From positions 100,204 through 164,203 of the forward strand of contig JADLHA010000028.1 in NCBI GenBank assembly GCA_020848995.1: a stretch of DNA of 64,000 bases. Reading direction: 5' to 3'. The DNA comes from Saprospiraceae bacterium (GTDB lineage: Bacteria; Bacteroidota; Bacteroidia; Chitinophagales; Saprospiraceae). A program made the position numbers and the translations under genes. The notes below the pieces were generated by a model. That model was given only the letters and a program-made list of their open reading frames with translations. It searched no databases and had not been told where the DNA came from. Shown here piece by piece: positions 41,608 to 64,000 of the stretch (within the stretch, counting starts at the first letter, position 1; the number at the start of each line of letters is the position of its first letter).

Positions 41608-41611
41608 GCAT

Positions 41612-42580
41612 ATGCAAACGAGAAGGAGCTTCCTGGCATCGGGTATCGTAGCCGGTTTGACTGCCGGCTCTCTGCCAAAATCACTGTCTGCTCTTCAGTT
41701 TCGGGGAAAAAAGGGTTTCCCCTGTGTTCTGGCAACCTGGCACAACCGAAAGGCCGTAGAGGCTGCGTGGGAGGTGCTCCAAACCGGGGGATCTGCCCTG
41801 GATGCGGTGGAAGCCGGTGCCAGAGTTCCCGAAGCCGACCCGGATGACAGCTCAGTTGGTTATGGAGGCCTGCCTGACCGCGAAGGCAGGGTCACCCTCG
41901 ACGCGTGCATCATGGATTCCCAAGGAAATGCCGGTTCCGTGGTATTTCTGGAAGGCATCCTGCACCCGGTTTCCGTTGCGCGTAGGGTCATGGAGCAGAC
42001 CCCCCACGTCATCCTCGCAGGTGAAGGTGCCCTGCAGTTTGCCCTACAACAGGGATTCAAACAAGAGGAGCTGCTGACCCCGTTCGCACGGGAAGCCTGG
42101 CAGCGATGGAAGGTCGAATCCAGGTATCAGCCCGTCATCAATCAGGAACGGCACGACACGATTGGCATCCTGGCCATGGACGCAGAGGGCTTTGTGGCAG
42201 GAGCCTGCTCCACCAGTGGCCTGGCATTTAAAATGCGCGGCAGGGTGGGCGATTCTCCGATCATTGGAGCCGGACTTTACGTCGACGGCGAAGTAGGGGC
42301 AGCAACGGCCACAGGCCTGGGAGAAGCCGTGCTCAAGAAGCTGGGAGCCTTTTCGATTGTGGAGATGATGCGACAGGGGATGAGCCCGCAAAAGGCTTGC
42401 CACGAAGCGGTGCGCCGGCTGCTGTCGGTGCGGGCAACTGAAGCCTTCCAGGTGGGCTACGTCGCCGTGGACCACAGGGGTCGCACCGGGGCCTGTTCCC
42501 TCCGACCCGGCTTTCAGGCTTCCCGGAGAAGGGCCGCCGGATTCGAACTTCAGGACGCTCCAAGCCTGTTGGCGCACTAA
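41612..42580 (+). CDS. N4-(beta-N-acetylglucosaminyl)-L-asparaginase (glycosylasparaginase)
   Basis: A 322-residue Ntn hydrolase that cleaves the GlcNAc-asparagine bond, the last step in N-glycoprotein breakdown. The N-terminus TRRSFLASGIVAGL looks like a twin-arginine export signal. The precursor is cut before the nucleophile Thr183 in RHDTIG; SSVGYGGLP and ACSTSGLAFKMRGRVGDSP (core: STSGLAFKMRGRVGDSP) are the family's substrate-binding segments. The frame opens at 41444 inside the GH92 gene, but 41612 gives the signal. The 4-base gap to GH92 implies translational coupling. Confidence 0.95.
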   Translation: MQTRRSFLASGIVAGLTAGSLPKSLSALQFRGKKGFPCVLATWHNRKAVEAAWEVLQTGGSALDAVEAGARVPEADPDDSSVGYGGLPDREGRVTLDACIMDSQGNAGSVVFLEGILHPVSVARRVMEQTPHVILAGEGALQFALQQGFKQEELLTPFAREAWQRWKVESRYQPVINQERHDTIGILAMDAEGFVAGACSTSGLAFKMRGRVGDSPIIGAGLYVDGEVGAATATGLGEAVLKKLGAFSIVEMMRQGMSPQKACHEAVRRLLSVRATEAFQVGYVAVDHRGRTGACSLRPGFQASRRRAAGFELQDAPSLLAH

Positions 42581-42840: not shown

Positions 42841-43500
42841 ATGGACGGGATCCGATACGTTGCGGCTGATGACCACAGACTTTTTCTCCGGGGATTCAGG
42901 CTGCTGCTCGACCGGATCCGGACTGCCAAACCACTGGTTTGTGTTGGTGAAGCTTCCAACATACAGGAAGTGCTGAGACTGATACAGCCCGAAGAAGTCG
43001 ACCTGTTGTTTTTGGACCTCAACCTGGCGGATACTGACGCCACGCAACTCATACCAAAATTCAAAGAACTCCATCCGGGTTTGCGGATCCTTTGCATCAG
43101 CATGTACACAGATACAAAGCTGGTTCGCGAAGCCCTGAAGAAAGGTGCCGATGGGTTCCTTTCTAAAAATGTGGATCTACCCGAACTGGAAGCTGCCATT
43201 GATTCGGTGATGGAAGGGGAAATCGTGCTGGGAAAAGACATCAGCCTCTCCGCCGCTGCCCTCCGCCAATTGGGAACGAGGCCCGGCATCAACCGCTTCA
43301 ATGCTCCTTTTCAGCTCACCAGGAGAGAAAAGGAAATTCTCGATCTGGTCGTCAAGGGAAAATCCAACAAAGACATTGCAGCGCTGCTGTTCATCAGCAA
43401 GGAAACCGTGAGCGCTCACCGAAAGAGCCTGATGCGAAAATTGAATGTGCGAAATGCTTCAGGTCTGATCAGGGTGGCTTACGATTTTAACCTGGTCTGA
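42841..43500 (+). CDS. NarL/FixJ-type response regulator
   Basis: A 219-residue two-component regulator. The receiver domain (about 1-125) has the acidic pair ADDH, the phosphate acceptor Asp59 in LFLDLNLAD and the lysine of FLSKNV. The LuxR-type helix-turn-helix (about 150-215) contains LTRREKEILDLVVKGKSNKD (core: LTRREKEILDLV) and KETVSAHRKSLMRKL. No histidine kinase gene is adjacent, so it is an orphan here. It precedes the large adhesin genes and might control them, but only position supports that. Confidence 0.95.
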   Translation: MDGIRYVAADDHRLFLRGFRLLLDRIRTAKPLVCVGEASNIQEVLRLIQPEEVDLLFLDLNLADTDATQLIPKFKELHPGLRILCISMYTDTKLVREALKKGADGFLSKNVDLPELEAAIDSVMEGEIVLGKDISLSAAALRQLGTRPGINRFNAPFQLTRREKEILDLVVKGKSNKDIAALLFISKETVSAHRKSLMRKLNVRNASGLIRVAYDFNLV

Positions 43501-43604: not shown

Positions 43605-46600
43605 ATGAAAAAGGAAACGTTTACGATCCTGCAATTACTCCAAAAGTCCAGTCGCTGGGTTATGGCCGCAGCGCTTGCGCTTTTGCTTTTTGCGCAGGAC
43701 GGCCTGGCGCAATGTCCGCTCGCCTGCAACAATCTGGTGCAGGTCTCAGTGGATGAAATGTGCAAGGCCGTGATCACAGCCGACATGATCCTGGAGGATC
43801 CCGGAGCAAATTGCAATTACGTGGTGGTCGTATATGGCACCAACGGACAGCCCATACCAGGCGCTACGGTTACAAACGCTCACATTGGACAAACCCTTAC
43901 GGTGTCGGTTTTCCTCGGCAGCAATTCCTGCTGGGGTTCCATTTTTGTAGAAGACAAACTGCCACCGGTGATCACATGTCCCCGGTTGGATACGGTGTTT
44001 TGCAACCAGCACAACTATGTATTGATACCACCGGTTGTAACGGACAACTGTTCGGGGGTGACCCGTCACGTCATATCGGACGAGATCATCAAATACCCTT
44101 GCGACTCGGTCTTTGCCGGCAAACGCGTGATCAAATACTATTATACCGATGCATACGGCAATCGTTCGGATACCTGTGAGCAGTGCGTGTATTTCGATAA
44201 AATTGATCCCATCACCGACGTAGACTGGCCTTTGGACACCATCTTCGATTGTGAAGATATGGATACGGTTCCTTCACCGGCAATCACCGGAGTGCCTACG
44301 GTTGCAGGAGAGCCGCTGTACCCAAGCTGGGGAGTATGCCAGATCGCCATCACCTATGAAGACCAGATCCTGCCGATCTGTCCCAAAAGCTTCAAGGTAC
44401 TTCGCAAATGGACTTACCTCGACTGGTGTCGCACCAGCTCAACCCCGGATAACCCATATTACAAATACCAGGTGATCAAAGTCATCGACACCAGTGGGCC
44501 GGTGCTGTCCTGCTCGCCCAATATAACGGTCAATACCGATGTGTGGAAATGCACGGGAACCGCCCTGCTGCCACCGCCCACCATTCTTCAGGAATGCAGC
44601 TACGTCGATTCGATTTACGTAGGGTATAAGATCGTAACCACCGCCAACGATACGCTGACGTACGACGGGACAAACTCCAACAACATCGTCAAACTCAAAA
44701 ACGGCCTATACAGCATCAGCGATTTGCCGCTGGGTTTGAATTGGGTCGTCTTCCGGGTGTGGGATGCCTGTGGCAATTACACGGAATGCGCCACGGAAGT
44801 GTTTGTAGAGGATAAAGTACCTCCGGTTGCCGTGTGCGACCAGAAAACCACCGTTACCCTTACGCTTGACGGTACGGCAAAAGTTGCTGCCATCACGTTC
44901 GATGATGGTTCCCACGACAATTGCGGAATCTCGCGATACGAAGCGCGGCGAATGGACAATGGCGTCCCCTGCAACACGCCCGACGGCGATGAGTTTAACC
45001 CCTATGTCTTTTTCTGTTGCGATGACATCGGGAAAACGCTTATGGTATCCATGCGCGTTTGGGATATCCATGGAAATTCGAACACCTGCATGGTAGAGAT
45101 CGAAGTACAGGACAAACTCGCTCCGTTCATCATTTGTCCACCGCACATCACTGTTTCGTGCGAATTCGACTACACCGACCTGTCTGACTTTGGAACGGTG
45201 AGGGATGACGCTGCCGACCGCGAGCCCATCGTGATTTCTGATAAATACCTGAACGCATCAGGTCCTCTGCTCGACGGCTATGCTTACGACGGCTGCGGGG
45301 TCAAAATCAAAGAATCAGTATTCACCGACCTGAAATGCGGTGAAGGTACCATTCGGCGCACATTCACGTCCACCGACGATGCAGGCAACAGCGCGAGCTG
45401 TACACAGATCATCACGATCGACGATCGCACTCCGGACAATGTGCAAGTATTTTTCCCGGACGACACCATCTTTACCACGATTTGTCTGACCAAACAGCAG
45501 CTGACGCCCGAGATCACCGGAAAGCCCGTCATCAAGGGTGCCGATAAATGTTCCAATATCGTGACCACGTATGAAGATCTCGTCTTTACGCTCGATCCGG
45601 ATGCGTGCATCAAGATCCTGCGCAAGTGGATCGTCATCGACTGGTGCGTGTGGAAGCCAAACGAAAAGGAATCTCCCGGGTATTGGTCATGGACGCAGGT
45701 CATCAAGGTGGTCAACAACGTACCTCCGAAATTCACCAGCAGCTGCAGCGACCGCACCGTCGACGTTTTTGGCCCGGGCTGCAAAGGGCAGGTTGACCTG
45801 GTCGCTTCAGCCGATGACGACTGCACCGACGATGCCGACCTCAGTTGGACCCACACGGTGGATCTGTTCAATGACGGCACCAACGACGCTTCGCATTCCG
45901 GTCCCGGAAGGGATGCATCGGGAGTATATCCCGTGGGTGTGCACAAAGTGCAGTTTACGGTGTACGACGCGTGCAACAATAAAAATACCTGCACCTTCCT
46001 GCTGACCGTTCGCGACGGCAAAAAGCCAACGCCGGTTTGTCTGGGCTCTGTTGTAACGACGGTGATGCCAAGTTCGAAGAGCGTCGCAATCTGGGCAAAG
46101 GACTTTGACCTCAAAAGCGAGGACAACTGCACGCCGCACGAGCGCTTGCGCTTTGCATTTCTGGTCAACGGCCGGTTCGATTCTTCGTTGGTCCTGACCT
46201 GTTCCAACATCGGCATCAACATCCTGAGGGTATATGTCATCGACGAGGCAGGCAATTCGGATTACTGCGAAGTGCAACTCGATTTGCAGGACCCCAACAA
46301 AGTGTGCCCGACAGGGCTGACCATCACGGGTAAATTTACGACCATCAAAGGAGGTCCCGTGGCCGGAGTAACGGCGATATGGGAACGCATCAACCCCGCG
46401 GGGACCAACGCAACGTATTCTGACAAAACGGGAGCATTTGCTTTCTACAACATCACTCCAGGTATGGATTATACCCTGCGGGCAGAAAAGACCAACGGCC
46501 AATACGTAAATGGCGTGAGTACCTACGACATCGTGCTGATCCAAAAGCACATTCTGGGAATCCAGCTCTTTGATTCGCCGTACAAATTCCTTGCTGCTGA

Positions 46601-47552
46601 CGTCAACGCCAGCTGTGGCATTACCGCAGCCGACATTTCCGAGATCAGGAAGCTCATTTTGGGCACCATTTCAAAATTCGATAAGACGCCTTCGTGGAAA
46701 TTTGTTCCGGTTGCCTCCGCAATGCCCAATCCCGTACAACCTTGCGGTTTTGCAAACAGCATTACATACAACCTGATCAACCGCAACGAGACGAGTGCCG
46801 ATTTCTATGGCATCAAAATGGGCGACATCAACATCGATGTTGACGCCGGCAACTTTGGACAGACCAGTACCCGCAATGCGAACAAACGTTTGTTCGTCGC
46901 CGACGAGGTGATCCTGGAAGCAGGCCGCGAATACGACATCCCCGTGTACTTCGGTCAGGATGCCCACCTGGATGGACTCCAGCTTGCAGTCCAGGCCGTT
47001 GCCTCACGGGCAGAGATCCTGGGTCTGAAACCGGGTAAGCTGCCGATCGCAGAAGATGAATACGCACTCGATGGCAGGCAAATTCGCATAGCCGTAGCCC
47101 TCGCGGGAGACCATCAACTGAACGCGGGAGAAACGGCATGGTACCTTCACCTCCGCGCTACTGTCTCCGGCCGGCTCTCGCAGGCATTGCAGCTTGGCGA
47201 GGCGCTTGCGGCAGAATGCTATGAAGTACATACAGGCCTTGTGCCTCTCGATTTTGCTGTTCGCGATGCAGACAAAAACGACCTGGGCAGATCTTCTGTG
47301 CTGTATCAAAATGTTCCAAACCCATTCACGGGCTCGACTCGCGTAGGCTTTGAGATCGAACGCGACCAGGAAGTAGAATTTGTTGCCAGCGAGCTCAACG
47401 GCAAAGTGCTGTTCCGCACGAAGAAATTCTACGCAAAAGGTTACCACGAGCTCGACCTTTCGGCAGATCTCCTGCCCGGAGAAGGCGTCTTCTTCCTGCA
47501 GATGAATACGCACGACTACAGCGAAACCAAACGATTAATTCACATCAGATGA
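43605..47552 (+). CDS. Giant HYR-like repeat protein with dockerin-like module and T9SS sorting domain
   Basis: A 1315-residue secreted protein. The signal peptide (about 1-36) ends DGLAQ. The main body has repeated cysteine-rich Ig-like HYR modules, with recurring junctions such as VEDKLPPVITCP, VEDKVPPVAVC, VQDKLAPFIICP, and the motif VLRKWTYLDWC. At about 960-1030 a dockerin-like pair of helices appears (VSTYDIVLIQKHILG and ADVNASCGITAADISEIRKL). The second loop keeps D-x-N-x-S calcium ligands; the first is degenerate. A type A T9SS sorting domain (about 1230-1315, YQNVPNPFTGSTRVGF) ends the protein. The ATG at 43605 is set by the signal peptide. The next gene encodes cohesin-like domains. 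Confidence 0.9.
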   Translation: MKKETFTILQLLQKSSRWVMAAALALLLFAQDGLAQCPLACNNLVQVSVDEMCKAVITADMILEDPGANCNYVVVVYGTNGQPIPGATVTNAHIGQTLTVSVFLGSNSCWGSIFVEDKLPPVITCPRLDTVFCNQHNYVLIPPVVTDNCSGVTRHVISDEIIKYPCDSVFAGKRVIKYYYTDAYGNRSDTCEQCVYFDKIDPITDVDWPLDTIFDCEDMDTVPSPAITGVPTVAGEPLYPSWGVCQIAITYEDQILPICPKSFKVLRKWTYLDWCRTSSTPDNPYYKYQVIKVIDTSGPVLSCSPNITVNTDVWKCTGTALLPPPTILQECSYVDSIYVGYKIVTTANDTLTYDGTNSNNIVKLKNGLYSISDLPLGLNWVVFRVWDACGNYTECATEVFVEDKVPPVAVCDQKTTVTLTLDGTAKVAAITFDDGSHDNCGISRYEARRMDNGVPCNTPDGDEFNPYVFFCCDDIGKTLMVSMRVWDIHGNSNTCMVEIEVQDKLAPFIICPPHITVSCEFDYTDLSDFGTVRDDAADREPIVISDKYLNASGPLLDGYAYDGCGVKIKESVFTDLKCGEGTIRRTFTSTDDAGNSASCTQIITIDDRTPDNVQVFFPDDTIFTTICLTKQQLTPEITGKPVIKGADKCSNIVTTYEDLVFTLDPDACIKILRKWIVIDWCVWKPNEKESPGYWSWTQVIKVVNNVPPKFTSSCSDRTVDVFGPGCKGQVDLVASADDDCTDDADLSWTHTVDLFNDGTNDASHSGPGRDASGVYPVGVHKVQFTVYDACNNKNTCTFLLTVRDGKKPTPVCLGSVVTTVMPSSKSVAIWAKDFDLKSEDNCTPHERLRFAFLVNGRFDSSLVLTCSNIGINILRVYVIDEAGNSDYCEVQLDLQDPNKVCPTGLTITGKFTTIKGGPVAGVTAIWERINPAGTNATYSDKTGAFAFYNITPGMDYTLRAEKTNGQYVNGVSTYDIVLIQKHILGIQLFDSPYKFLAADVNASCGITAADISEIRKLILGTISKFDKTPSWKFVPVASAMPNPVQPCGFANSITYNLINRNETSADFYGIKMGDINIDVDAGNFGQTSTRNANKRLFVADEVILEAGREYDIPVYFGQDAHLDGLQLAVQAVASRAEILGLKPGKLPIAEDEYALDGRQIRIAVALAGDHQLNAGETAWYLHLRATVSGRLSQALQLGEALAAECYEVHTGLVPLDFAVRDADKNDLGRSSVLYQNVPNPFTGSTRVGFEIERDQEVEFVASELNGKVLFRTKKFYAKGYHELDLSADLLPGEGVFFLQMNTHDYSETKRLIHIR
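46879..46896. repeat. CGAACAAACGTTTGTTCG palindrome inside the giant protein gene
   Basis: A perfect 18-bp palindrome, the longest of the AACGTT-centred class. It encodes N-K-R-L-F in the host gene. It contains the same 14-mer as the copy at 1765-1778. Confidence 0.65.
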
Positions 47553-47583
47553 TGAGGATTGGGTAGTAAATGCAGTGTTTTTT

Positions 47584-47616
47584 GCCTGATCGCGGGGACG
47601 CGGTCAGGCTTTTTTT
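47584..47616 (+). terminator. Rho-independent terminator after the dockerin-like protein gene
   Basis: GCCTGATCGCG (47584-47594) pairs with CGCGGTCAGGC (47599-47609) with one G-U pair and a GGGA loop, then seven T. It is 31 bases after the stop codon and separates this gene from the cohesin-like gene. Confidence 0.88.
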
Positions 47617-47827
47617 ATTGAAAAATCAGGATTGGTGCGGACAAATGTGGCCAAAAGAACGCTTTTTATGCAAATCGCTTATGGATTGCTGGCTCAAAAC
47701 CTTATATTTGCCCTGGATCACCCGTCGCCTCCCTCAATATTCCCGAATTCAAGACTAAAAACCATTAAATTTGCCCGTTGGCTCATTGGGTGGCGCTTAG
47801 AATTGTATTAAAGGAATTTTATATATT

Positions 47828-47860
47828 CATTGAAAAGATTTATAAAGACATATTAATTTT
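47828..47860 (+). promoter_or_regulatory. Bacteroidota-type promoter of the cohesin-like gene
   Basis: TTG (47829-47831), a 21-base spacer and TAATTTTG (47853-47860). This matches TTTG-N19-21-TAnnTTTG apart from the first T. It lies 31 bases before the ATG at 47892. Two other TAnnTTTG matches at 47703 and 47766 have no -33 partner. Confidence 0.55.
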
Positions 47861-47891
47861 GTTTGCGCTTTCAGCGCTCAATTTGCACGAA

Positions 47892-50800
47892 ATGAACCGA
47901 ACCATGAAATTCTACTTGAAAATATGCTGCATGCTCGGCATTGCACAGTTCGCCTCGGCCCAGATCACCCTTCAGCCCGACGCCGTGACAGGTGACGCCG
48001 GGGATACGGTGTTGGTGCCGGTCAAGGTCACCGGTTTCAACAAGATCACTTACACCCAGTACAGCTTTCATTACGACTCTAACGTCGTTGAATTGCTGGG
48101 CATCGTCAAGACGACTGCGTACAAAGACCTCTTTTCCAGTCTGGATTTTGGTCCACTCAACGTAAAAGGGCGCATCGGTTTCAACTGGGAGGCCGAACAG
48201 GGCATTCCCCAAAACATAGCCAACGGAACTGTGCTTTTCAGTTTCCGCTTTCGCCTGATTGGGGAGGAGTGCGATTCGACTGCCATCACCATCGCGAATG
48301 AGCCCACCCGGATTGAAGCCGGCGACGAAAACCTCGACCCGATCGAGTTGAAGGCGACCACCGGAAAAGTCAAGATCAACGGAGCCAATTGTCCAGGAGG
48401 GCCCCCACCGGATACGACGAGCCTGCAGATCATTGCCTCAACGGAGACGACCCCTGCCGGCGTTGTCAAGTGCATCAAAGTGACGACCAAGGCATTCAAA
48501 AATATACAAACCGGACAATTTACCATCCACTGGAACCGCAACATCGCGGTATTCGACACGGTCAACTCCGGAGCCTGGACGATGACCTGGGGTCAGAATT
48601 ACGCAGCGCTTGCCGATCGCAGCGGAGTAGGCATTACCTGGGATGCCGGACGCACACCCCTAACCCTGCCAGATGATGCCGTGCTCTTCGAAGTCTGCCT
48701 CCAGCCCGTCGGAAGTCCTGGCAGCTCGACCGACATCACCTTCGACGGGAACCCCATCATCATCGAGTTCACCGACGGCAACACCGACCCGGTAAACGCC
48801 CGCTTTACATCGGGCAAACTGACCATCACCGATGCCCCAGCCCAAACCCTTAAACTTTACGTCCGCGATACCATGGTTGAGGAAGGGGCCGAATTCTGTA
48901 TCCCGATCCGCGTTGATAACTTTACCTGCGTTCAGAATTTTCAGTTCAGCGTGCTCTTCGATACCTCGAAACTCAAGTTCAAACGCATCGCCAACATCAA
49001 CCTGCCTTCCCTGGGCACCCAAAACTTTAATGTGGCCAACGACTCGGTTCGCGTGACCTGGGATGCCTCCACGGGGCCTCAGGACCTTCCCAACGGGGGC
49101 TTTCTGTTCTCCATTTGCTTTGAATCGCTGCTGGCTGCACCCAATTGTCCTTTTGACACCAAACTGCGCTTTGCCGACCTGCTCGGAAGCCCGGTTGAAT
49201 TTTCGGATTGCAACAGCAACAATTTTACCGTGGTATTCGAGGAACCCGAATTTACCGTAAAATGCAGAACGGTTGTGCAACCCGTGGTGATCAGCCTGGG
49301 CACAAAGACAGATGTCAAGTGCTTTGGTGACTGCAACGGACGCATACAGGGGACTCAGGTTACCGGCGGCAAAGGCCCCTTCGATTACGAATGGCAACTG
49401 CAGCCATCGGGAGTCGTCATCTCGACGGTACTGGAGCCCGCAGACCTCTGTCCCGGAGAGTACCGGCTGGTGGTCGTCGACCGCGGCAACAACAATGCGC
49501 GCACCTCTTCCGTGGCCATTACCATCTCCGGACCTGCAGCAGCCATCGAGTGCTCAGCGGTGGTGACCCACGTGCAAACCGTCAGCGACGGCAAGATCGA
49601 CCTCACCGTGACCGGAGGGACCCCACCTTACACATTTACCTGGTACCGCTTGCCCAACCGGCTAAATCCACCACGTACCGAAGAAGATCCGGCCAATTTG
49701 CCGGCAGCGAGCTACGAGGTGACCATACGCGATAACAACGGATGCGAGAAAGTCTGCACCTTCACCGTCAATCCCGCTCCGATCAAGGTGGCCGGCATTA
49801 CCGAACTTGCCAAGAACAGATGCTATGGCGACTGCGAAGCCTCGTTGAATGTCAGCGCATCCGGAGGCAAAACTCCCTACCAGTTGGCTCAGTGGAGCAA
49901 CGGCGACCGCGGAAACGTTGCAGATTCTCTTTGTGCAGGAAGCTACACCGTAACGGTTACAGATGCCGACGGCAATACCGCAACGGGTACCTATGTCGTT
50001 ACCCAGCCCGACGAAATCGTCACTACCCTCGATAGCACCCGTAAGTCCTCGGGGAATGACGGTGCCATCTACGTAACCGTTAAAGGGGGAACTCCAGGTT
50101 TTACTTATCAGTGGAAAAACTCCGCCGGCGCGGTGGTTGGAAACACCGAAGACCTGATCAACATCCCCCCCGGAACGTATCAGTTGTGTGCGACCGACCA
50201 GAACAACTGCGTCAAATGCGAAAACTACATCTGCGACCCGGTCAACACCACTCCTCCAACGATCACGGTCAACCTCAAAATTGAGCTCAAAAATGGCAAC
50301 CAGGCGGTGACGTGTAAGGGCAAATGCGACGGAAGGATTACCGTTGAAGTGACCTCTTCCGATCCACGGTTGCCGTATCGCTATCGCTGGTCGCACGACT
50401 CCTTGCTCAATTCAGCCACGGCCTCAAACCTTTGCCCGGGGATCAGCTACCGGGTAACTGTAACAGATGCTGCGGGCAACTCCAAGGTTTCCAATGCGAC
50501 CGTCCTGCCCGATGCCGCTGCCATCACCCTTACGACCAAGCGCATCAAATGCGCAAGCACCTCTTCCTCTGCTGACGGCAGCTACGAAGCCCTGGTCAGC
50601 GGGGCAGTTCTACCGGTGAGTTATACCTGGTGCAACAACAGTTTTGGACAGGTAGCCAATGACCTGCAGGGTGGAGATTGCTCCGTCCAGATCGTCGATG
50701 CCAACGGATGCACCGCTTCTGAGAATTTTACGGTCTGCATTGGCACCGCCCCGAACGCCGACTGCTTCAAGGGCAGGCTGGCCATATCCCCGAACAGCGA

Positions 50801-51035
50801 CGGCCTGAACGACTTTCTCGACATCGCCTGTGCGGTCAATTTTGAAAATACCCTTACGATTTTCGACCGTTGGGGCAACCAGGTCTTTGCGGCCAACAAC
50901 TACAATGGCACCTGGGCCGGGACAGATGAAGAAGGCAACGAGCTCACTGAGGGCACCTATATGTGGATCCTGCAGGTTCGCGAAGCCGGCGCCGACGACC
51001 GCTATTTCAAAGGAACCGTCACGATTGTAAGATAG
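47892..51035 (+). CDS. Surface protein with three cohesin-like domains, SprB-like repeats and type B T9SS sorting domain
   Basis: A 1047-residue secreted protein. After the signal peptide (cleavage after QFASAQ), three cohesin-like domains follow at about 25-155, 175-315 and 320-455. Their features are GDTVLVPVKVTGF, YSFHYDSNVVELLG, GRIGFNW and NGTVLFSFRF, and each domain repeats this order. From about 467 to 950 come SprB-like repeats (CFGDCNGRIQ, GGKGPFDYEW, CYGDCEASLNVSASGG). The C-terminus (NSDGLNDFLDI, IFDRWGNQVF, LTEGTYMWIL) is a CHU_C type B T9SS domain. It resembles mobile gliding adhesins such as SprB. SprF-like protein follows 28 bases later, as in the sprB-sprF pair. Confidence 0.9.
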   Translation: MNRTMKFYLKICCMLGIAQFASAQITLQPDAVTGDAGDTVLVPVKVTGFNKITYTQYSFHYDSNVVELLGIVKTTAYKDLFSSLDFGPLNVKGRIGFNWEAEQGIPQNIANGTVLFSFRFRLIGEECDSTAITIANEPTRIEAGDENLDPIELKATTGKVKINGANCPGGPPPDTTSLQIIASTETTPAGVVKCIKVTTKAFKNIQTGQFTIHWNRNIAVFDTVNSGAWTMTWGQNYAALADRSGVGITWDAGRTPLTLPDDAVLFEVCLQPVGSPGSSTDITFDGNPIIIEFTDGNTDPVNARFTSGKLTITDAPAQTLKLYVRDTMVEEGAEFCIPIRVDNFTCVQNFQFSVLFDTSKLKFKRIANINLPSLGTQNFNVANDSVRVTWDASTGPQDLPNGGFLFSICFESLLAAPNCPFDTKLRFADLLGSPVEFSDCNSNNFTVVFEEPEFTVKCRTVVQPVVISLGTKTDVKCFGDCNGRIQGTQVTGGKGPFDYEWQLQPSGVVISTVLEPADLCPGEYRLVVVDRGNNNARTSSVAITISGPAAAIECSAVVTHVQTVSDGKIDLTVTGGTPPYTFTWYRLPNRLNPPRTEEDPANLPAASYEVTIRDNNGCEKVCTFTVNPAPIKVAGITELAKNRCYGDCEASLNVSASGGKTPYQLAQWSNGDRGNVADSLCAGSYTVTVTDADGNTATGTYVVTQPDEIVTTLDSTRKSSGNDGAIYVTVKGGTPGFTYQWKNSAGAVVGNTEDLINIPPGTYQLCATDQNNCVKCENYICDPVNTTPPTITVNLKIELKNGNQAVTCKGKCDGRITVEVTSSDPRLPYRYRWSHDSLLNSATASNLCPGISYRVTVTDAAGNSKVSNATVLPDAAAITLTTKRIKCASTSSSADGSYEALVSGAVLPVSYTWCNNSFGQVANDLQGGDCSVQIVDANGCTASENFTVCIGTAPNADCFKGRLAISPNSDGLNDFLDIACAVNFENTLTIFDRWGNQVFAANNYNGTWAGTDEEGNELTEGTYMWILQVREAGADDRYFKGTVTIVR

Positions 51036-51063: not shown

Positions 51064-52110
51064 ATGAAAAATTTATATATAATTGTTCTTTCGCTCGGAA
51101 TGACCTGGTGTTTGGTCAACAGGGCCGTAGCTCAGGACGATGCAGTTGCCCTAAAGGCACAATCCGTCTACAACCACTATCCCCTTAACCTCTTTCTGCT
51201 CAACCCGGCGGCTACCGGAGTGCAGGGCACAAGCCAGTTGCTGTTCAACTTCCGCAACCAGTGGGCCGGATTCGACGGCTCTCCGAAGGTGCTTACATTC
51301 GGCATCGACGGAAGTCCTGCGCGCAATATGGGTCTGGGGGCCATGATCTACAATGAAAATTATGGGGTGGCCAACCGCTTTCTCGGACAGGTAAACTACG
51401 CCTATCATTTCCAGACCAACGAGGACGTAAAAATGTCGCTGGGCCTGTCGGGCGCATACATACAGTACAACCTCGACAATGAGACCATCACTGATCCACT
51501 GCACCAGGGACCGGATCCCGTGATCAACCGCGCCATCAACGGCGAGAAGTTTTTTGCTGCTGACCTGGGCTTCTACTCGGTGATCAAAGGTAAATACCGA
51601 ATCGGGTTTAGCATTCCCCACCTCGTCCAGACCCGCCTCGATGACACCAACATCACCGGAGTGGCCGACGACAAAGGCGATAAGCCCGTCAGCCTCACGG
51701 CTTTCCTGGGAGCCATCTGGCGATTGCCTGAATACCGCCTGATCCTCGAGCCGTCCGTTGGTTTGCGCAAGATTTCCGACGCTCCGTTTGGCACCGACAT
51801 CAATTTGCTGGCCAAGTTGCTCGAAGAGCGCTTATTTGCCGGTTTTACCTACAGTTTCAATCCCTCCTGGCACCGCATCGGCATGTTGGCCGGTGTGAAG
51901 GTGGACCGGCTGGGCATTTTTTACTCCTACGACCAGTCCTACCTCGATTTTCAGCAGTTTAATAGCGGATCACACGAGATCACCCTGTCGTTCGACCTTC
52001 ACAAAAAGCATGCTCCACCAGCGGCCGAGCCCCTCGACATGGAAAAAATGCAAACAGGCAGCGAGACCGGCAAAGAAGACATTCAGGCACCAATGGAGAA
52101 GAATCAGTAA
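51064..52110 (+). CDS. T9SS outer-membrane protein, PorP/SprF family
   Basis: A 348-residue outer-membrane barrel of the PorP/SprF family. The signal peptide (cleavage after NRAVAQ) is followed by the typical HYPLNLFLLNPAATGVQG start, LLFNFRNQWAGFDGSPKVLTFGID (core: NFRNQWAGFDGSP), and LFAGFTYSFN and SFDL barrel strands. SprF family members are needed for secretion or surface attachment of SprB-type type B substrates. Its place directly after the cohesin-like type B protein predicts that it handles that one cargo. A TTG at 51055 is possible, but the ATG at 51064 is preferred. The last 40 residues are a charged, proline-containing tail. Confidence 0.95.
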   Translation: MKNLYIIVLSLGMTWCLVNRAVAQDDAVALKAQSVYNHYPLNLFLLNPAATGVQGTSQLLFNFRNQWAGFDGSPKVLTFGIDGSPARNMGLGAMIYNENYGVANRFLGQVNYAYHFQTNEDVKMSLGLSGAYIQYNLDNETITDPLHQGPDPVINRAINGEKFFAADLGFYSVIKGKYRIGFSIPHLVQTRLDDTNITGVADDKGDKPVSLTAFLGAIWRLPEYRLILEPSVGLRKISDAPFGTDINLLAKLLEERLFAGFTYSFNPSWHRIGMLAGVKVDRLGIFYSYDQSYLDFQQFNSGSHEITLSFDLHKKHAPPAAEPLDMEKMQTGSETGKEDIQAPMEKNQ

Positions 52111-52667: not shown

Positions 52668-52758
52668 GGTTTTCGCCTGGCTTAATCATGCAACAACTTG
52701 TTAATTTGGCACCCGTTTTTCCCCGGAATTGGTACTTTTACAGCCCAAATATCTGAGA

Positions 52759-55700
52759 ATGAGTAGTTTTTGGAGAGGATGCCCGTACTGGATCTTGGTT
52801 TTAAGTCTTTTTGCTTGCGGCGAGAAGCCGAAGGGTGGTTTTAATGGCAAACTTTTTACCCTGGTGCCGCCACAGGAATCGGGAGTGCAATTTTCCAACG
52901 ACATCACCGAAACGCCTTCGGAACACATCTACACGTTCAATTACATCTACAACGGGGCGGGCGTTGCTATTGCGGATTTCGACAACGATGGACTGCAGGA
53001 CATTTACTTCGTAGGCAACCAGGTTTCGGACCGGTTGTATAGAAACCTTGGCCATTTCATTTTTGAGGATGTTTCCGACAAAGCGGGAATCGACAAATTG
53101 GGTGGGTGGCGAAGCAGTGTCTCAACCGCAGATGTCAATGGGGACGGATTGCTCGATCTCTACATTTGCAGGGGAGGGTTCCTCAATATTCCCGAGAAGA
53201 ACAGCAACATCCTGCTGATCAATAAGGGCAACATGCAGTTTGCCGATGAAGCTGCAGCATACGGCCTCGACGACCCGGGATATTCCATCGCGTCAACCTT
53301 TTTTGACTACGATTACGACGGCGACCTCGACCTGTTTGTAACCAACCGTCCGGAACGGTGGACCATTCAGGAGGATTCCATCGTAGCGGTCAAAACACGT
53401 ATGGAAAAAGGCAGTTTCGACCCGCTGACCACCAGCAAACTTTTTCGCAACGAGGGCAATGGCAAGTTTTCAGATGTGAGCCGCGATGCGGGAATCTATC
53501 CAAGTTACAGTTACGGCCTGGGGGCAGTTGCTGGAGACCTAAACAAAGACGGCACCCAGGATCTCTACGTTGCCAACGATTTTATTGAAAACGATTATTT
53601 CTACATCAATTACGGTGACGGGACCTTCAAGGAAAGCGTAAAAACACTGACCAACCACGTTCCCTACTATTCCATGGGGGTCGATTTCGGCGACATCGAC
53701 AACGACGGCAATGAGGAGGTGCTGGTGGTTGAAATGAGACCTGAAGATTACCGGCGTTCAAAGACGACCATGCCGGCCATGCAGCCCGAATATTTTGCCC
53801 AACTGAAAAGTATGGGCTTCCAGGACCAGTACATGCACAACGTCCTGCAATACAACCACGGCAATGGATTTTTTACCGACATATCGCAGTTGGCTGGTGT
53901 TGATAAAACGGACTGGTCTTGGGCGGCGTTGCTGAGCGACCTCGACAACGATAGCTACAAAGACATCATCGTCACCAACGGATACCGGCGGGATGTTTAT
54001 GACCGCGACACCAACGAGAAAATGCGACAGTACCTCAGGGAGCGCAACAATCTGGTAGACAGCGTTGAACAGGTGCTGGGAATCCTTCCTTCCGTTAAGT
54101 TGGTAAATTACGTTTATAAAAATCAGGGCAACCTGAAATTTGAAAAGATGATGAAGGACTGGGGCTTCAGCGAGACGAGCTTTTCGAATGGCGCAGCACT
54201 GGGCGATCTGGACAATGATGGTGACCTCGACCTCGTCGTCAGCAACATCGATGACCCCGCATTTATTTACCGCAACAACGCCGACGGGCAGCAAAATTAC
54301 TTGCGCGTTGCCTGTACGGGAAATCCCAAAAATCATTTTGGCATCGGCGCAAAAGTCACCATACACTACGGAGACAAAATACAATATGCCCAACTGAAGA
54401 CGTCTCGAGGCTACCTTTCTTCCTGTGAACCTTTTATTCATTTTGGTATGGGAAGCACTGAAAAAATAGACAGGATCGAAATTGACTGGCCCGATTTTAA
54501 AAAACTCGTACTGGAAAACGTACGCGCGAATCAGACGATCATCGCAGACTATACTCAGGCAAACCAACAATCAGATTTTCAACAGACCTATTATCCGGTA
54601 TTTGCAGAGCACACCCAGGCCAGCATACTACCCATGTATATCCACGAGGAAAACCGTTTCAACGATTACCTGAAGCAGGTTTTATTGCCTCACCAGTTGA
54701 GCAGGCTGGGACCGTTCATCAGCGTAGCCGACGTCGACGGGGATGGACTGGAAGATTTTTATGCAGGTGCCCCCCATTTTAAAGCCGGGCAATTGTACGT
54801 GCAGACGGACTCGGCAACCTTCCGGGCGAAACCAATTCCTCTGTTTGATAAGGACAGGGATTACGAAGATATGCAAAGCCGTTTCTTTGACGCTGACCGC
54901 GACGGCGATATGGACCTGTACGTCGTTTCCGGTGGAACTGAGATGAAGGAAGATTTGCCGATCTACCAGGATCGCCTGTACCTCAACGACGGGCGAGGGA
55001 ATTTTACAAAGAACATCACCGCTCTTCCCAAAATTCGTTCCAGCGGATCGTGTGTTGTAACCTGGGATTACGATGGAGACGGCGATATTGACATTTTTCG
55101 TGGAGGACGTACCATTCCGGATAAATATCCCTACCCACCGAAATCCTACCTGCTTCAAAACGATGGCAAAGGAAACTATTCAGATGCAACCGATGCTCTG
55201 GCCCCAGAATTGCGCCAAATTGGAATGGTCACCGATGCGGTATGGCTCGATCTGAACGGCGACAGCTTTCCGGAGCTGATCGTCGTTGGAGAATGGATGC
55301 CCATTGTGGTTTTTGAAAACGACAAAGGCAAACTAATCAGGGCAGAATCTTCCAAATACGGTGTTCAGCAGACAGAAGGGTGGTGGAACCGGATCGCCAA
55401 AGGCGATGTCGACGGCGACGGCGACATCGACCTCATCGCCGGCAACCTGGGAACCAACTACAAGTTTCACGCCAGTGTGGACAAGCCGTTTATGGTTTAT
55501 TGCGATGACTACGACCAAAACGGTACATACGACATCGTCCTGGCCAAATACAACGGCAAAGACCTCGTGCCGGTAAGAGGCAAGCAATGTTCTTCTGAGC
55601 AGGTTCCATCCATCGCCCAGAAATTTCCAAACTACAATTCGTTTGCCGATGCCAGTTTGCAGGACATCTATGGCGAGGGACTTGAAAAGGGATTGGTGCA

Positions 55701-56082
55701 TAAGGCACACTTATTCGAAAGTGTGGTGTTGAAAAACGAAAAGGGTCGTTTTTCCATCGAGCCTCTTCCTCAGACCTGTCAATTCAGTACCGTGCAGGGC
55801 ATTGTTGTAGAAGACATCAATGGCGATGGAATAAAAGACATCGTACTTGCAGGCAACCTGTTCAATGCTGAAATTGAAACAACCCGTGCAGATGCTTCGG
55901 TTGGAGTCGTTTACCTTGGAGGAAAATCGGGCTTGTTCGATCAAAATCTCAAGCCAAATGAATCGGGCTTTTTCGTTCCTTACGACGTCAAAGACATTCA
56001 GGCCATCCGCATCGGAGGGAAACCTTCCCTGCTTGCAGGCGTCAACAACAACGTCATGTACTTTTTTAGAAACATAAAGTAA
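52759..56082 (+). CDS. CRTAC1-family FG-GAP lipoprotein with ASPIC/UnbV domain (first of two)
   Basis: A 1107-residue lipoprotein (signal LVLSLFAC). It carries many FG-GAP/VCBS repeats with calcium-binding D-x-D-x-D-G loops, for example DFDNDGLQDIYF, DVNGDGLLDLYI and [12 protein letters not shown]. They probably form two beta-propellers, before and after the ASPIC/UnbV domain (about 507-605, FGIGAKVTIHYGDK). Such proteins are exported calcium-binding scaffolds or adhesins, often near SusC/SusD genes, which are absent here. The frame opens at 52729 but the ATG at 52759 gives the lipobox. The second copy follows 15 bases later. Confidence 0.92.
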   Translation: MSSFWRGCPYWILVLSLFACGEKPKGGFNGKLFTLVPPQESGVQFSNDITETPSEHIYTFNYIYNGAGVAIADFDNDGLQDIYFVGNQVSDRLYRNLGHFIFEDVSDKAGIDKLGGWRSSVSTADVNGDGLLDLYICRGGFLNIPEKNSNILLINKGNMQFADEAAAYGLDDPGYSIASTFFDYDYDGDLDLFVTNRPERWTIQEDSIVAVKTRMEKGSFDPLTTSKLFRNEGNGKFSDVSRDAGIYPSYSYGLGAVAGDLNKDGTQDLYVANDFIENDYFYINYGDGTFKESVKTLTNHVPYYSMGVDFGDIDNDGNEEVLVVEMRPEDYRRSKTTMPAMQPEYFAQLKSMGFQDQYMHNVLQYNHGNGFFTDISQLAGVDKTDWSWAALLSDLDNDSYKDIIVTNGYRRDVYDRDTNEKMRQYLRERNNLVDSVEQVLGILPSVKLVNYVYKNQGNLKFEKMMKDWGFSETSFSNGAALGDLDNDGDLDLVVSNIDDPAFIYRNNADGQQNYLRVACTGNPKNHFGIGAKVTIHYGDKIQYAQLKTSRGYLSSCEPFIHFGMGSTEKIDRIEIDWPDFKKLVLENVRANQTIIADYTQANQQSDFQQTYYPVFAEHTQASILPMYIHEENRFNDYLKQVLLPHQLSRLGPFISVADVDGDGLEDFYAGAPHFKAGQLYVQTDSATFRAKPIPLFDKDRDYEDMQSRFFDADRDGDMDLYVVSGGTEMKEDLPIYQDRLYLNDGRGNFTKNITALPKIRSSGSCVVTWDYDGDGDIDIFRGGRTIPDKYPYPPKSYLLQNDGKGNYSDATDALAPELRQIGMVTDAVWLDLNGDSFPELIVVGEWMPIVVFENDKGKLIRAESSKYGVQQTEGWWNRIAKGDVDGDGDIDLIAGNLGTNYKFHASVDKPFMVYCDDYDQNGTYDIVLAKYNGKDLVPVRGKQCSSEQVPSIAQKFPNYNSFADASLQDIYGEGLEKGLVHKAHLFESVVLKNEKGRFSIEPLPQTCQFSTVQGIVVEDINGDGIKDIVLAGNLFNAEIETTRADASVGVVYLGGKSGLFDQNLKPNESGFFVPYDVKDIQAIRIGGKPSLLAGVNNNVMYFFRNIK

Positions 56083-56097
56083 AAGCTTATTCATACT

Positions 56098-59000: not shown

Positions 59001-59484
59001 CAAATCTTACGATGCGTTTGGAAAATCGACCCTGGAAGAAGTGTACGGTGAGATGCTCCAGGGAGCACTCAACTACAGGGCATCTAACTTTCAGTCCGTG
59101 TTGCTGATCAACCAGGGAGGCCGGTTCGAGTTGGTGCTTCTGCCCAACCGGGCACAGACTGCCCCGGTGAACGGAGTCCTGGCAGATGATTTTGACGGCG
59201 ATGGCACCATTGACTTGGTGGTCGCTGGCAACCTTTTCGTCTCCGAAGTCGAAACGGGTCGTGCCGACGCAGGCACGGGATTGTTTCTGAAGGGGGATGG
59301 CAAAGGGGACTTTGCAGAGTATAGCCCTCATCTGAGTGGACTGTACCTGCCCGGTGACGTAAAAAACATCGCCCTGATCCGCAAATCCTACTCCGGAGAT
59401 CCCTACGTGGTCGTGGCCAACAACAATGCCCCGCTGCAGGTTTTCGCCGTACGATCAAGCGAAGCGACCCGCAATCCTCAATAG
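56098..59484 (+). CDS. CRTAC1-family FG-GAP lipoprotein with ASPIC/UnbV domain (second of two)
   Basis: A 1128-residue paralogue of the preceding protein, collinear through most of its length. The lipobox is SGLVFNGC (Cys about 27). FG-GAP repeats include [24 protein letters not shown] and [12 protein letters not shown]; the UnbV domain lies at about 530-625. Both copies share stretches such as [22 protein letters not shown] and [18 protein letters not shown], and both end with an interpreted 'NNNAPLQVF' or 'NNNVMYFF' strand. The 15-base gap suggests an operon that arose by duplication. Confidence 0.92.
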
Positions 59485-60396: not shown

Positions 60397-63300
60397 ATGA
60401 AAATAACTCTATCTAATCCTCTGAGGACCTTCGGCAGTTTTTGTCTGCTTCTGTTGGGCCTTGGGCTGAGCATTTCGGTCAATGCTCAGGGGTGTCCGGG
60501 GAAATCCCCTACCTGCCGGTTCGCGGGAACCACTGCGACCGATGACACCATCCGGCCGGCAATCATTCTCGGTCTCAATCCAGGCACCTGTGCTGCAACG
60601 GTCAACGTACCTAGACCTGCATACAACATCCGGGGTTGCGGCTCCGCTGCGGATTACACGGGCGGAGTGACATTGGGGCCCCTCGTATTGAGGAACGACG
60701 TAGGCTGTTCATTTGCTGAAGCCTGTAACTCCTCTTTTGGTTGCGGAATCATTACGACGACTAACGTTTTCGCACCCGTTGCCCCGGCGACAAACTCAGG
60801 ACCCTCTTCGTCTCCTTACGACGTAAACTGCGGACCGGTGCGAATCGTCATGTTCGACAACGGAACATCCAGCTGGTCTGACACGTACCAAATGCTGGTT
60901 GCCGGTTGCGCAGTAGGTACGTATACTTCAGGAAACAACCAAAACGATACCCTTCGCGTACCTCGTGGAGTGTATAACAACGAGGTAACTACCACTACCG
61001 GTGGTTATGTGCGCGTTCAACCGGATCACGCCTGGGGTGGCAACACTACTTTTGGAGAATGTGTTCCTACTTTCCAGATCAACGTGCCAAACCTTTGCTG
61101 TGAGTCCATCAACAACATTACCAATAACTGCAACACGCCTACGATTACGGGTTCCGGCGGTCGTTATTTCGTCCGCTGGACGGGCGATGCCAACGATGGC
61201 ACTGTGTTGGGTATTCAGGAAGTGATCATCCAGGATACCGAGCCTCCAACCTTCGTCGGTTGTCCTAAAGCAGTCATCATCAACCTCGGCCCCGGCGAAT
61301 GCGAAGGTTCCTGGGATGCGCCTCCGATTATGGCCATGGACAACTGTCCTTCTGCCATTGTCCGTACCGGAGTTGAGCGCATTGCTCCGGGTTGTCAGGT
61401 TTCACCAAATATTGTGTGGAATCCCGGTTTCTACGGAGGCAATATGTGGGATATCCAAAACATAGGTACACAGCCCATCATTTTCCATGGCATCGATGTT
61501 CATTGGAGAAATATGGACACGGCTACCGTATGGTATACCACGGCTCCGGGTAGCCACGTTCCGGTTCGCTTTAACAGGGCTTCCTGGACTCGCTGCAACA
61601 GCGGCGTATGGGTACCAGGAACCGGTGGTACCTTCCCACCTCCTGCCAGAGTGTACATCGATCTCAGAACGATCAACGTATTCCAGAATTCGACATGTAC
61701 AGGTGTAACATTTGACACCGTCCGTGGCGGATGCCCGGTACTCCAACCAGGCGAAATTCGCGGTATTTACATTGCCGGTATCCTCGGACAGGGAGGGATG
61801 TACTGGAGCAGCGGTGGTTGTACAACCGCGGGAGCTCCTTGGGGAGATGCCAATCTAGCCATTTTGAAGAATCCTCCCATGTCCTGCGTTTACGGTACAG
61901 GTCTGTTTGGTGCAGGTGGTGGTCTTGCTACATCGGGTAACCAGCAATTTGTTGGCAATATCCGGTATAGCTTCCCCGCGGCTGATAACATGGTGCAAGT
62001 GGTACAAACCTGCGGCCAGCCTTATGGCCCCGGTTGCTTCTTCCCAATTGGCTGTACAACTCTTTGCTACGAGGCTACCGATGCCCAGGGCAATGTTGCA
62101 ACTTGCCAGTTCGACGTATGCGTAAACGAATATGCGAATACGGTAACCGCTCTTGCATGCCATGACGAAATCCAGATCAGCCTCGACGAAGACTGTCTGG
62201 CTACCATTTCTGCTGATGAAGTTTTGGCAGGTGGCCCCTACAGGTGCTATGACGACTATACCGTTGAGGCACGCGACTGGGTTACCAATGCCCTCGTCGA
62301 CCGTGATCCGCAAACGGACGGTACTCAAGTGGGCAGCCAGGACATCGGCCGCGAGTTGAAAATCACCGTGCGCGATCCCCTCACGGGCAATAGCTGCTGG
62401 GGTCATGCACGCGTAGAAGACAAATGGCCACCAGACATCACCTGCCCAAGGGATACCTGCGTTCCCTGCTATTCACCGACTTCTCCGGCTTATACCGGCG
62501 TAGCTTCAGTGGATGAGAACTGCGGTGGTTATTCCCTGAGCTATAAAGACAACGTCACCTTCGGTAGCTGTGCCGCCGGTTACGACCGCATCATCCGCCG
62601 TACCTGGACAGCCGTTGACGCTTCCGGAAACAAAGACGTCTGTGTACAGGAAATTACCGTAAGCCTCGGTAGCCTGTTTGATGCACAAGTGCCGCTCAAC
62701 TGGGACAACATCGAAAATCCAATGCTTTCCTGCGACGGAAAATACGATCCCAACAAAGACGTTACCCCGCACTACCTGCCTTATCCATATTGCGTGGATG
62801 GCTACCTGCTCGACTCCGCACATTGGTTTGCTACGGGAGGATTCCTGCCCAGCCCAACCGGAGACCTTGCCGGTGAACGCCTTCCGATGGTACTTGGATG
62901 GAATTGCATCGATGCCGGCGAATACGCTGGCCACCCAAGCCCCTATCCGATCTACTATCCCGCACACCCAAGCTGGAGACCAAACAACCCGGTTTGCTGG
63001 GGTCCGGACGAAATCGTCATGTGGCATGGCACGGGCTTCCCGGGCGGTGTAAACTGCAAAAACCTGGGCGTAACTTGGAAAGACATCACCATCGACCTGG
63101 CAACCCCAGGCTGCGATGCCGGCGAAGTTGGCTGCTTTAAAGTACTGCGCCAATGGACTGTCATGGACTGGTGTACCAGCGAAATCGGCGGACACAACCA
63201 GGTGATCAAAGTGGCTGACGCAGAAGGTCCGAAGATCCTCTATCCGGATACCCTCATCGTCAACATGGAAGTGTGGACCTGCACGGGCCGTTGGGAAGTT

Positions 63301-64000
63301 TCCCCGGCTTGGCTGATCGACAACTGCAGCAACGAAGTACATTATACGGTAGAAGTTGAAGCAGGTACTGTACTCGGCAACGAGGTCAGCGGATACGTCG
63401 TAGTCGATATGCCTGTAGGCATACAGAGCGGTTACATCGTAGCTGAAGACTGCTGCGGCAACATCACCAAAAAGCGCATTGCCCTCGACGTTCAGGACAA
63501 CGTTCCCCCGGTAGCAGTTTGCGAAGCCAAAACAGTCGTATCGATCAACGGCAACCAGTCTGCCGGCGAAAACTTCGCCAAGATCTTTGCCGAATCCTTC
63601 GACCAGGGATCCTTCGATAACTGTCAGCCGCACATCTTCTTCAAGGTGATCCGCATGGAGCATCTGCGTGGGACGAACAACGGAAGCAATACTGCACAAC
63701 CCGATAATGGCACCAATTGCGCCGGCATCAACGGCGACGACAATGCCATCCTCGACGGCAACCAGATCTATTTCGACGATCATGTCAAGTTCTGCTGTTC
63801 AGACGTGGGCAATACCGTGATGGTAGTATTCCGCGTATTTGATCGCGAACCTGGCGCAGGCCCGATCGCTCCGACCCGCATGAACCCGGGTGGAAACCTG
63901 TTCAACCGCTTCAGCGACTGCATGGTCGAGGTGGAAGTACAGGACAAGAGCGTTCCGACGGTAGTTGCACCGCCAAACATCGTGGTGAGCTGCTGGTTCT
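60397..64000 (+). CDS. Second giant HYR-like repeat protein (3' end outside the window)
   Basis: The frame stays open from the ATG at 60397 to the window edge, at least 1201 residues. A signal peptide (cleavage after SVNAQ) is followed by a cysteine-rich N-terminal part, then HYR-like modules with junctions IQDTEPPTFVGCP, VEDKWPPDITCP and VQDNVPPVAVC. It shares VLRQWTVMDWC and VEVWTCTG-like segments with the protein at 43605, so the two are paralogues. Dockerin-like and T9SS sorting domains would be expected beyond 64000 but cannot be seen. It is not shown as a complete reading frame because no stop is in the window. Confidence 0.88.
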   Translation, partial: MKITLSNPLRTFGSFCLLLLGLGLSISVNAQGCPGKSPTCRFAGTTATDDTIRPAIILGLNPGTCAATVNVPRPAYNIRGCGSAADYTGGVTLGPLVLRNDVGCSFAEACNSSFGCGIITTTNVFAPVAPATNSGPSSSPYDVNCGPVRIVMFDNGTSSWSDTYQMLVAGCAVGTYTSGNNQNDTLRVPRGVYNNEVTTTTGGYVRVQPDHAWGGNTTFGECVPTFQINVPNLCCESINNITNNCNTPTITGSGGRYFVRWTGDANDGTVLGIQEVIIQDTEPPTFVGCPKAVIINLGPGECEGSWDAPPIMAMDNCPSAIVRTGVERIAPGCQVSPNIVWNPGFYGGNMWDIQNIGTQPIIFHGIDVHWRNMDTATVWYTTAPGSHVPVRFNRASWTRCNSGVWVPGTGGTFPPPARVYIDLRTINVFQNSTCTGVTFDTVRGGCPVLQPGEIRGIYIAGILGQGGMYWSSGGCTTAGAPWGDANLAILKNPPMSCVYGTGLFGAGGGLATSGNQQFVGNIRYSFPAADNMVQVVQTCGQPYGPGCFFPIGCTTLCYEATDAQGNVATCQFDVCVNEYANTVTALACHDEIQISLDEDCLATISADEVLAGGPYRCYDDYTVEARDWVTNALVDRDPQTDGTQVGSQDIGRELKITVRDPLTGNSCWGHARVEDKWPPDITCPRDTCVPCYSPTSPAYTGVASVDENCGGYSLSYKDNVTFGSCAAGYDRIIRRTWTAVDASGNKDVCVQEITVSLGSLFDAQVPLNWDNIENPMLSCDGKYDPNKDVTPHYLPYPYCVDGYLLDSAHWFATGGFLPSPTGDLAGERLPMVLGWNCIDAGEYAGHPSPYPIYYPAHPSWRPNNPVCWGPDEIVMWHGTGFPGGVNCKNLGVTWKDITIDLATPGCDAGEVGCFKVLRQWTVMDWCTSEIGGHNQVIKVADAEGPKILYPDTLIVNMEVWTCTGRWEVSPAWLIDNCSNEVHYTVEVEAGTVLGNEVSGYVVVDMPVGIQSGYIVAEDCCGNITKKRIALDVQDNVPPVAVCEAKTVVSINGNQSAGENFAKIFAESFDQGSFDNCQPHIFFKVIRMEHLRGTNNGSNTAQPDNGTNCAGINGDDNAILDGNQIYFDDHVKFCCSDVGNTVMVVFRVFDREPGAGPIAPTRMNPGGNLFNRFSDCMVEVEVQDKSVPTVVAPPNIVVSCWF

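Follow-up and report, generated by a model that had tools for sequence, protein, structure and literature searches.

The window analysed here, a stretch of 64,000 nucleotides, is the end of contig C28 (JADLHA010000028.1) in the genome of a Saprospiraceae bacterium, which is 3.14 Mb long in 52 contigs. It carries a block of four genes encoding a response regulator and three further proteins that we call p1, p2 and p3, and our concern is the possible interaction between a dockerin-like module of p1 and the cohesins of p2. The p1 and p2 open reading frames (ORFs), and the PorP/SprF gene that follows them, lie where a first-pass annotation made from the sequence alone had placed them. The named relatives of p1 and p2 are mostly metagenome-assembled genomes of Saprospiraceae, and on the nearest named contig the p2 product is 94 % identical. 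The genes of the block are:

42841..43500, + strand, LuxR-type response regulator, with which the conserved block begins (PF00072 and PF00196)
43605..47552, + strand, p1, HYR-repeat surface protein with a dockerin-like module, an in-cis cohesin-like domain and a type A signal of the type IX secretion system (T9SS) (Pfam/NCBIfam, orthologue alignment)
47892..51035, + strand, p2, scaffoldin-like protein (three cohesins, then SprB repeats, then a type B T9SS signal)
51064..52110, + strand, p3, PorP/SprF-family outer-membrane protein, likely the cognate shuttle and anchor of p2 (PF11751, E-value 9.9e-52; TIGR03519, E-value 4.1e-51)

The p2 protein is 1047 aa long, and its parts are as follows:

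47967..48377, + strand, cohesin 1
48426..48833, + strand, cohesin 2
48843..49247, + strand, cohesin 3 (below the PF00963 cut-off; profile match to the 4ums cohesin)
49269..50741, + strand, SprB repeat region (PF13573, E-value 1.4e-30, five stretches)
50781..51023, + strand, type B T9SS sorting domain (PF13585, E-value 8.3e-21; TIGR04131, E-value 1.5e-9; both over cut-off)

The three cohesin-like domains previously proposed for p2 are borne out by profile searches. The whole protein matches the Pfam cohesin family PF00963 with an E-value of 1.2e-13 and a score of 51.9 bits against a cut-off of 24.1; taken alone, domain 1 is over the cut-off (45.7 bits), domain 3 is under it (16.5 bits) and domain 2 has no Pfam match. 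The count of three stands because profiles of the orthologues of domains 2 and 3 match solved cohesins at 4.1e-5 and 5.7e-7 respectively. The domains are also predicted to have the beta-sandwich fold of cohesins; domain 3 does not figure among the rows listed when folds were compared, which does not count against it. A chance resemblance of beta-sandwich and EF-like folds was rejected on the profile and fold evidence. As a non-catalytic protein with three cohesins p2 has the make-up of a scaffoldin, and no family of carbohydrate-binding modules (CBMs) is found among its Pfam matches at E-values up to 1. Its repeats, its type B C-terminal domain (CTD) and the adjoining downstream PF11751 gene are those of a SprB-like type B substrate, in keeping with its earlier designation as a SprB-like adhesin.

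The p1 protein (1315 aa) is the large HYR protein that the first-pass annotation had described, its repeats being matched by PF02494 (3.5e-11), and the following parts can be distinguished in its C-terminal region:

46311..46499, + strand, residues 903-965, first part of a CarboxypepD_reg/transthyretin-like domain (PF13620, E-value 2.4e-4, below its cut-off; AlphaFold2 (AF2) model and PDB alignments)
46500..46679, + strand, residues 966-1025, dockerin-like module, a predicted insert in the transthyretin-like domain (PF00404, cassette profile, AF2)
46599..46634, + strand, residues 999-1010, second calcium-loop-like segment (sequence, and conservation over 39 cassettes)
46689..46832, + strand, residues 1029-1076, strands likely completing the transthyretin-like domain and ending in a K-x-G-D motif (AF2 strands, PDB alignments)
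46875..47267, + strand, residues 1091-1221, divergent cohesin-like domain in cis
47316..47540, + strand, type A T9SS sorting domain (PF18962, E-value 0.018; TIGR04183, E-value 0.0017; both below cut-off)

The dockerin had been thought to form the C-terminal end of p1, a placement that we reject, since the module is followed by the cohesin-like domain (about 1091-1221) and then by the sorting signal. Against PF00404 the full-length protein scores 15.1 bits and the isolated module 22.1 bits, and because both are under the cut-off of 22.9 we file p1 as dockerin-like; the dockerin reading thus fails at the Pfam threshold and holds at the level of the family, where a profile of 39 dockerin cassettes (transthyretin-like part, dockerin, K-x-G-D segment and cis cohesin-like domain) matches solved ScaB dockerins at 8.5e-8. 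In the AF2 model three helices are predicted for the module, which is predicted to be inserted in the transthyretin-like domain, and PDB alignments of the modelled p1 cassette span model residue 1 to 167-171. In line with the earlier reading of the loops, the second keeps ligand-type residues (D, N, S, T and D at the ligand positions of residues 999-1010) and the first is degenerate, unlike most of the 39 cassettes, which have N/D residues there. Cohesin recognition by Clostridium thermocellum dockerins is ascribed, in the account given in PMC4728124, to a Ser-Thr pair at positions 11/12 and a Lys-Arg pair at positions 18/19 of each F-hand. When the cassettes are mapped onto this numbering, which we did by counting from the conserved Asp, the positions of Lys-18/Arg-19 are nearly invariant, with Q in 32 and R/K in 38 of the 39 in F-hand 1, and R in 37 and K/R in 37 in F-hand 2. 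After the dockerin comes a K-x-G-D-V/I-N motif (window 46815-46832, p1 residues 1071-1076), also nearly invariant (K in 38, G and D in all 39 cassettes), which resembles the opening of a calcium loop in dockerins. The cohesin-like domain in cis, present in p1 and, by eye, in 18 sister proteins, had escaped the first-pass annotation. The AF2 model of the p1 cassette has a predicted TM-score (pTM) of 0.88, which suggests a fixed packing of this domain onto the remainder of the cassette.

T9SS signals had been assigned to both proteins, and here the evidence divides: the type B models score over their cut-offs in p2, and the type A models remain below theirs in p1. The genome encodes SprA, and a GldJ-like protein is present, below its curated cut-off. 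Type B CTD proteins are described in PMC9143113 and PMC12618676 as needing and binding a PorP/SprF protein, the gene for which commonly lies directly downstream. The gene behind p2 is of this kind, as had been proposed, and by extension from the published type B work p3 would take p2 from the translocon and hold it at the outer membrane.

A search of the genome places the pair in a wider setting. PF00404 gives 25 matches in 24 ORFs at E-values up to 0.08 and 23 matches at up to 0.01; besides p1, 15 matches are over the cut-off, with a sixteenth that passes only with its neighbours in frame. PF00963 gives 10 matches at E-values up to 10, eight of them over cut-off. Since eight of the nine outside p2 sit in the cis domain of dockerin ORFs and the ninth (C9) is not significant (E-value 0.5), no cohesin protein free of dockerins was found in the genome apart from p2, which is to be set against the 24 ORFs with dockerin matches. 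Judged by eye, 19 of these 24, p1 included, have the cassette; D12 is a doubtful twentieth, and D03, D11, D15 and D22 are without it. Lone weak dockerin matches mean little, because PF00404 also matches control genomes: in a set of 14 well-known genomes it does so in nine at E-values up to 10 (over cut-off in two) and in two at up to 0.01, and PF00963 matches two at up to 10.

The Pfam scan took in 20 of the 23 dockerin ORFs besides p1 (leaving out D11, D13 and D23, and taking D04, D10, D16 and D21 without their 5′ part) and returned HYR, DUF11, SdrD_B, CarboxypepD_reg, Big_9 and cadherin-like domains. No glycosidase was found in p1 or in these 20 ORFs, four of them lacking the 5′ part, and an AhpC-TSA redoxin is the single enzyme-like domain among the 20; the dockerin-like module on this redoxin lies at L027 3918-5627 (contig C48). 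Neither p1 nor p2 was found to carry an enzyme, which agrees with what had been noted of them before. At another locus (L031 4668-17993, contig C41) three dockerin ORFs stand head-to-tail in tandem, separated by some 50 to 70 bp.

The order response regulator-p1-p2-p3 is kept in all nine genomes of the genus that were searched (the window and eight others), so that the co-occurrence of these neighbours in relatives, which the proposed pairing had called for, is found. We found 29 ORFs with at least two cohesins and no dockerin, spread over 28 relatives, of which 8 belong to the genus and 20 to other genera, G031 having two of the ORFs; cohesins were counted by a profile of p2 and its orthologues at E-values below 1e-5, and the loci of other genera were chosen by p2 or cohesin matches, not by neighbours. 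The number of cohesins per ORF ranges from 2 to 8 (8 in G023, 7 in G026 and G028), three of the 29 being cut by contig ends, and eight of the 37 family genomes gave no multi-cohesin ORF, the locus having been fetched from only one of those eight. A PorP/SprF gene is directly downstream in 24 of the 29; of the remaining five, L086, L088 and L105 are cut by contig ends, and L101 and L108 have room downstream and no PorP/SprF gene there. A dockerin ORF is directly upstream in 13 (6 of 21 genera), and a same-strand dockerin ORF is present somewhere in the fetched stretch in 20.

Across 60 genomes, our own included, Pfam cohesins (E-value up to 0.001) and dockerins (up to 0.01) occur together in 33 of the 37 of the family, whereas the 23 of other families comprise four with both, eight with dockerins only, one with cohesins only and ten with neither; in these counts cis domains are included among the cohesins and kinship is uncorrected. 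Taken together, the sequences indicate that the p1-p2 pair is one instance of a family-wide arrangement of a multi-cohesin protein and many dockerin proteins, which the first-pass annotation had missed.

Two further arrangements deserve mention. In 10 of the 29 loci (L089, L090, L091, L092, L093, L094, L096, L098, L102 and L105) the multi-cohesin gene is preceded by a small ORF (256-313 aa) that encodes a single cohesin. When three of these ORFs were scanned, PF18962 was over cut-off in one and just under it in another, and the third had no Pfam match; the six that were read have a similar C-terminal tail, and the product resembles a one-socket surface anchor. In G031 (L108 7055-10395) a two-cohesin gene is directly followed by the gene for a 209-aa protein that has a signal-like N-terminus, a transthyretin-like part and a dockerin, with neither a cis domain nor a visible T9SS signal, and of the natural cases this one hints most cleanly at trans docking.

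Sequence conservation bears on the question of what the dockerins bind. Among 11 p1 orthologues (the 93 % identical P0001 being left out) mean pairwise identity is 0.80 for the dockerin, 0.71 for HYR, 0.63 for the sorting signal, 0.57 for the first transthyretin-like part and 0.29 for the cis domain, and it is 0.62-0.66 for the cohesins of 16 p2 orthologues (P0105, which is incomplete, and P0122 being left out). Because the dockerin is conserved over the cis domain and positions 18/19 are near invariant, this pattern on balance favours a shared partner outside the p1 protein. We lean, by a narrow degree, towards the view that p2 is scaffoldin-like and that the dockerin-like module of p1, and likely those of its sister proteins, docks on the p2 cohesins. 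The modules of p1 and of many sister HYR proteins would then bind in trans, in a calcium-dependent manner and through the dockerin helices, and the docked proteins would build a non-enzymatic coat or adhesin array. A bolder form, which we think rather improbable, is a self-assembling enzyme-free coat in which each HYR protein has both a plug, the dockerin set in its transthyretin-like domain, and a socket, its cis cohesin-like domain, and docks first on p2 and then on its fellows; branched adhesive chains would grow from a single outer-membrane anchor, and the p2 scaffold would be held, and possibly moved, by SprF.

A number of observations weigh against docking on p2. The p1 dockerin misses the PF00404 cut-off, its first loop is without the usual ligands, and the Ser-Thr pair with which C. 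thermocellum dockerins bind cohesins is kept in neither F-hand (T973 of F-hand 1 is found in 36 of the 39 cassettes with a variable residue next to it, and F-hand 2 has mostly Ala). In the AF2 model the cis cohesin-like domain may cover a dockerin face, and so rigid a cis arrangement would argue against an outside partner. The genomic record is also uneven: 16 of the 29 p2-type loci, some of them short contigs, are without a dockerin ORF directly upstream, the p2-SprF loci of G010 and G015 (L103 and L104) have none in the fetched stretch, three family genomes (G011, G013 and G021) have Pfam dockerins and no Pfam cohesin, G029 has the reverse, and in eight genomes of other families only dockerins occur.

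The cohesin-like domain right after the dockerin in p1 makes intramolecular docking an alternative, in which the dockerin would be held by its own chain, the clamp would stiffen the HYR C-terminus and p2 would bind other ligands. We hold this to be unlikely, if worth serious attention: the fixed packing of the model would suit it, but the dockerin is far better conserved among orthologues than the domain that would hold it, there are dockerin ORFs without a profile-detected cis domain (two in L097 and one each in L099 and L108; L098, which is cut, is not counted), and the conserved p1-p2 neighbourhood and the p2-type cohesin arrays would be left unexplained. The modules might instead be plainly structural, the cohesin folds serving as spacers or ligand-binding adhesin domains and the dockerin-like insert as a calcium-stiffened spacer, with the neighbourhood reflecting no more than a co-regulation of surface proteins. 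Cohesin-like folds have indeed been solved outside cellulosomes (archaeal 2xdh; Clostridium perfringens 2jh2 and 2w1n), dockerin genes cluster together in this genome and the first loop of p1 is degenerate; however, both dockerin helices have near-invariant residues over 39 proteins, and the joint occurrence of dockerins and cohesins within the family far more than outside it, although the cis domain and kinship confound it, also tells against this explanation, to which we give a low probability. Finally, the dockerins could bind cohesins other than those of p2, for instance the ones on the small proteins with a single cohesin in other genera, or sister cis domains. In favour of this, a small ORF of that kind immediately precedes the multi-cohesin gene in 10 of the 29 loci, but no such ORF precedes p2 in the nine loci of the genus and no other dockerin-free PF00963 protein was found in this genome, and we consider it very improbable. 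Docking of p1 on p2 remains the reading that we narrowly prefer.

One further gene in the window touches on this system:

60397..63999, + strand, gene of another HYR protein, of which only the 5′ part precedes the end of the contig (PF02494)

Its intact counterpart in the close relative G006 encodes a 2106-aa protein with a dockerin and a cis cohesin-like domain (95.5 % identity over residues 1-1201), and on the longer contig of that genome three more dockerin ORFs follow within 19 kb. Just upstream of the block (38743-42580) are GH92 and Asparaginase_2 genes, possibly concerned with N-glycan processing; homologues of both genes hold the same place in several of the genomes searched within the genus. 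Past the SprF gene, the stretch 52729-59484 encodes a tandem pair of large FG-GAP/ASPIC-UnbV proteins, homologues of which adjoin the block in L042, L043 and L044.

The main known role of cohesins and dockerins is to glue together complexes that degrade cellulose, and a 2009 study reportedly dealt with both outside cellulosomes. Should these pairs prove to bind, an entire family of bacteria would rely on this glue in arranging its structural surface proteins on T9SS adhesins, the cell holding non-enzymatic proteins on a scaffold as cellulosomes hold enzymes. This would offer a testable route to surface building and cell adhesion in such bacteria and might yield new pairs of cohesin and dockerin for use in protein assembly.

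A cohesin-dockerin system in Saprospiraceae is not described in the titles and opening lines of abstracts among the matches listed by our literature searches (e.g. the best 25 of 99 and the best 20 of 47). In a rumen member of the Bacteroidetes no cohesins or dockerins were identified, in line with other Bacteroidetes genomes, according to the relevant section of a 2018 paper (PMC5831590), and the accessible part of a single-cell study of 2023 (PMC10266427) reports Pfam dockerins in some gut Bacteroidetes, the sole genome named there for a cohesin being of Christensenellales. The word cohesin does not occur in the accessible text of a survey of abundant wastewater Saprospiraceae (PMC9304909). 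HycP, an HYR protein with a CBM3, is presented in PMC3723904 as studied for adherence in C. cellulolyticum.

In the cellulosome of Clostridia the cohesins of a scaffoldin receive dockerins borne by enzymes, whereas here the cargo is HYR or adhesin-like, a transthyretin-like domain is predicted to harbour the dockerin as an insert, the dockerin chain has a cohesin-like domain of its own and export is by the T9SS. We reject the label cellulosome since, one redoxin apart, no enzymes were found in the ORFs scanned, glycosidases included, nor any CBM on p2. The nearest published system that we found is that of Candidatus Stygibacter (Cloacimonadota), for which PMC8542988 infers a T9SS scaffoldin, with dockerin proteins in the same genome; the dockerin proteins named in that account are enzymes and the scaffoldin has CBMs, whereas in the present system the dockerin proteins are HYR proteins, and p2 has SprB repeats and a type B signal and is followed by a PorP/SprF gene. 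With SprB-SprF of Flavobacterium johnsoniae and PG1035-PorP of Porphyromonas gingivalis, as presented in PMC9143113 and PMC12618676, p2-p3 shares a type B CTD surface protein with a PorP/SprF partner, which is the shuttle and anchor there and likely so here, and with SprB the position of that gene directly downstream; to this plan p2 adds an N-terminal array of cohesins, which the accessible parts of the two papers do not mention for either pair. By analogy, the p1-p2 system likely works as a scaffoldin with dockerin cargo.
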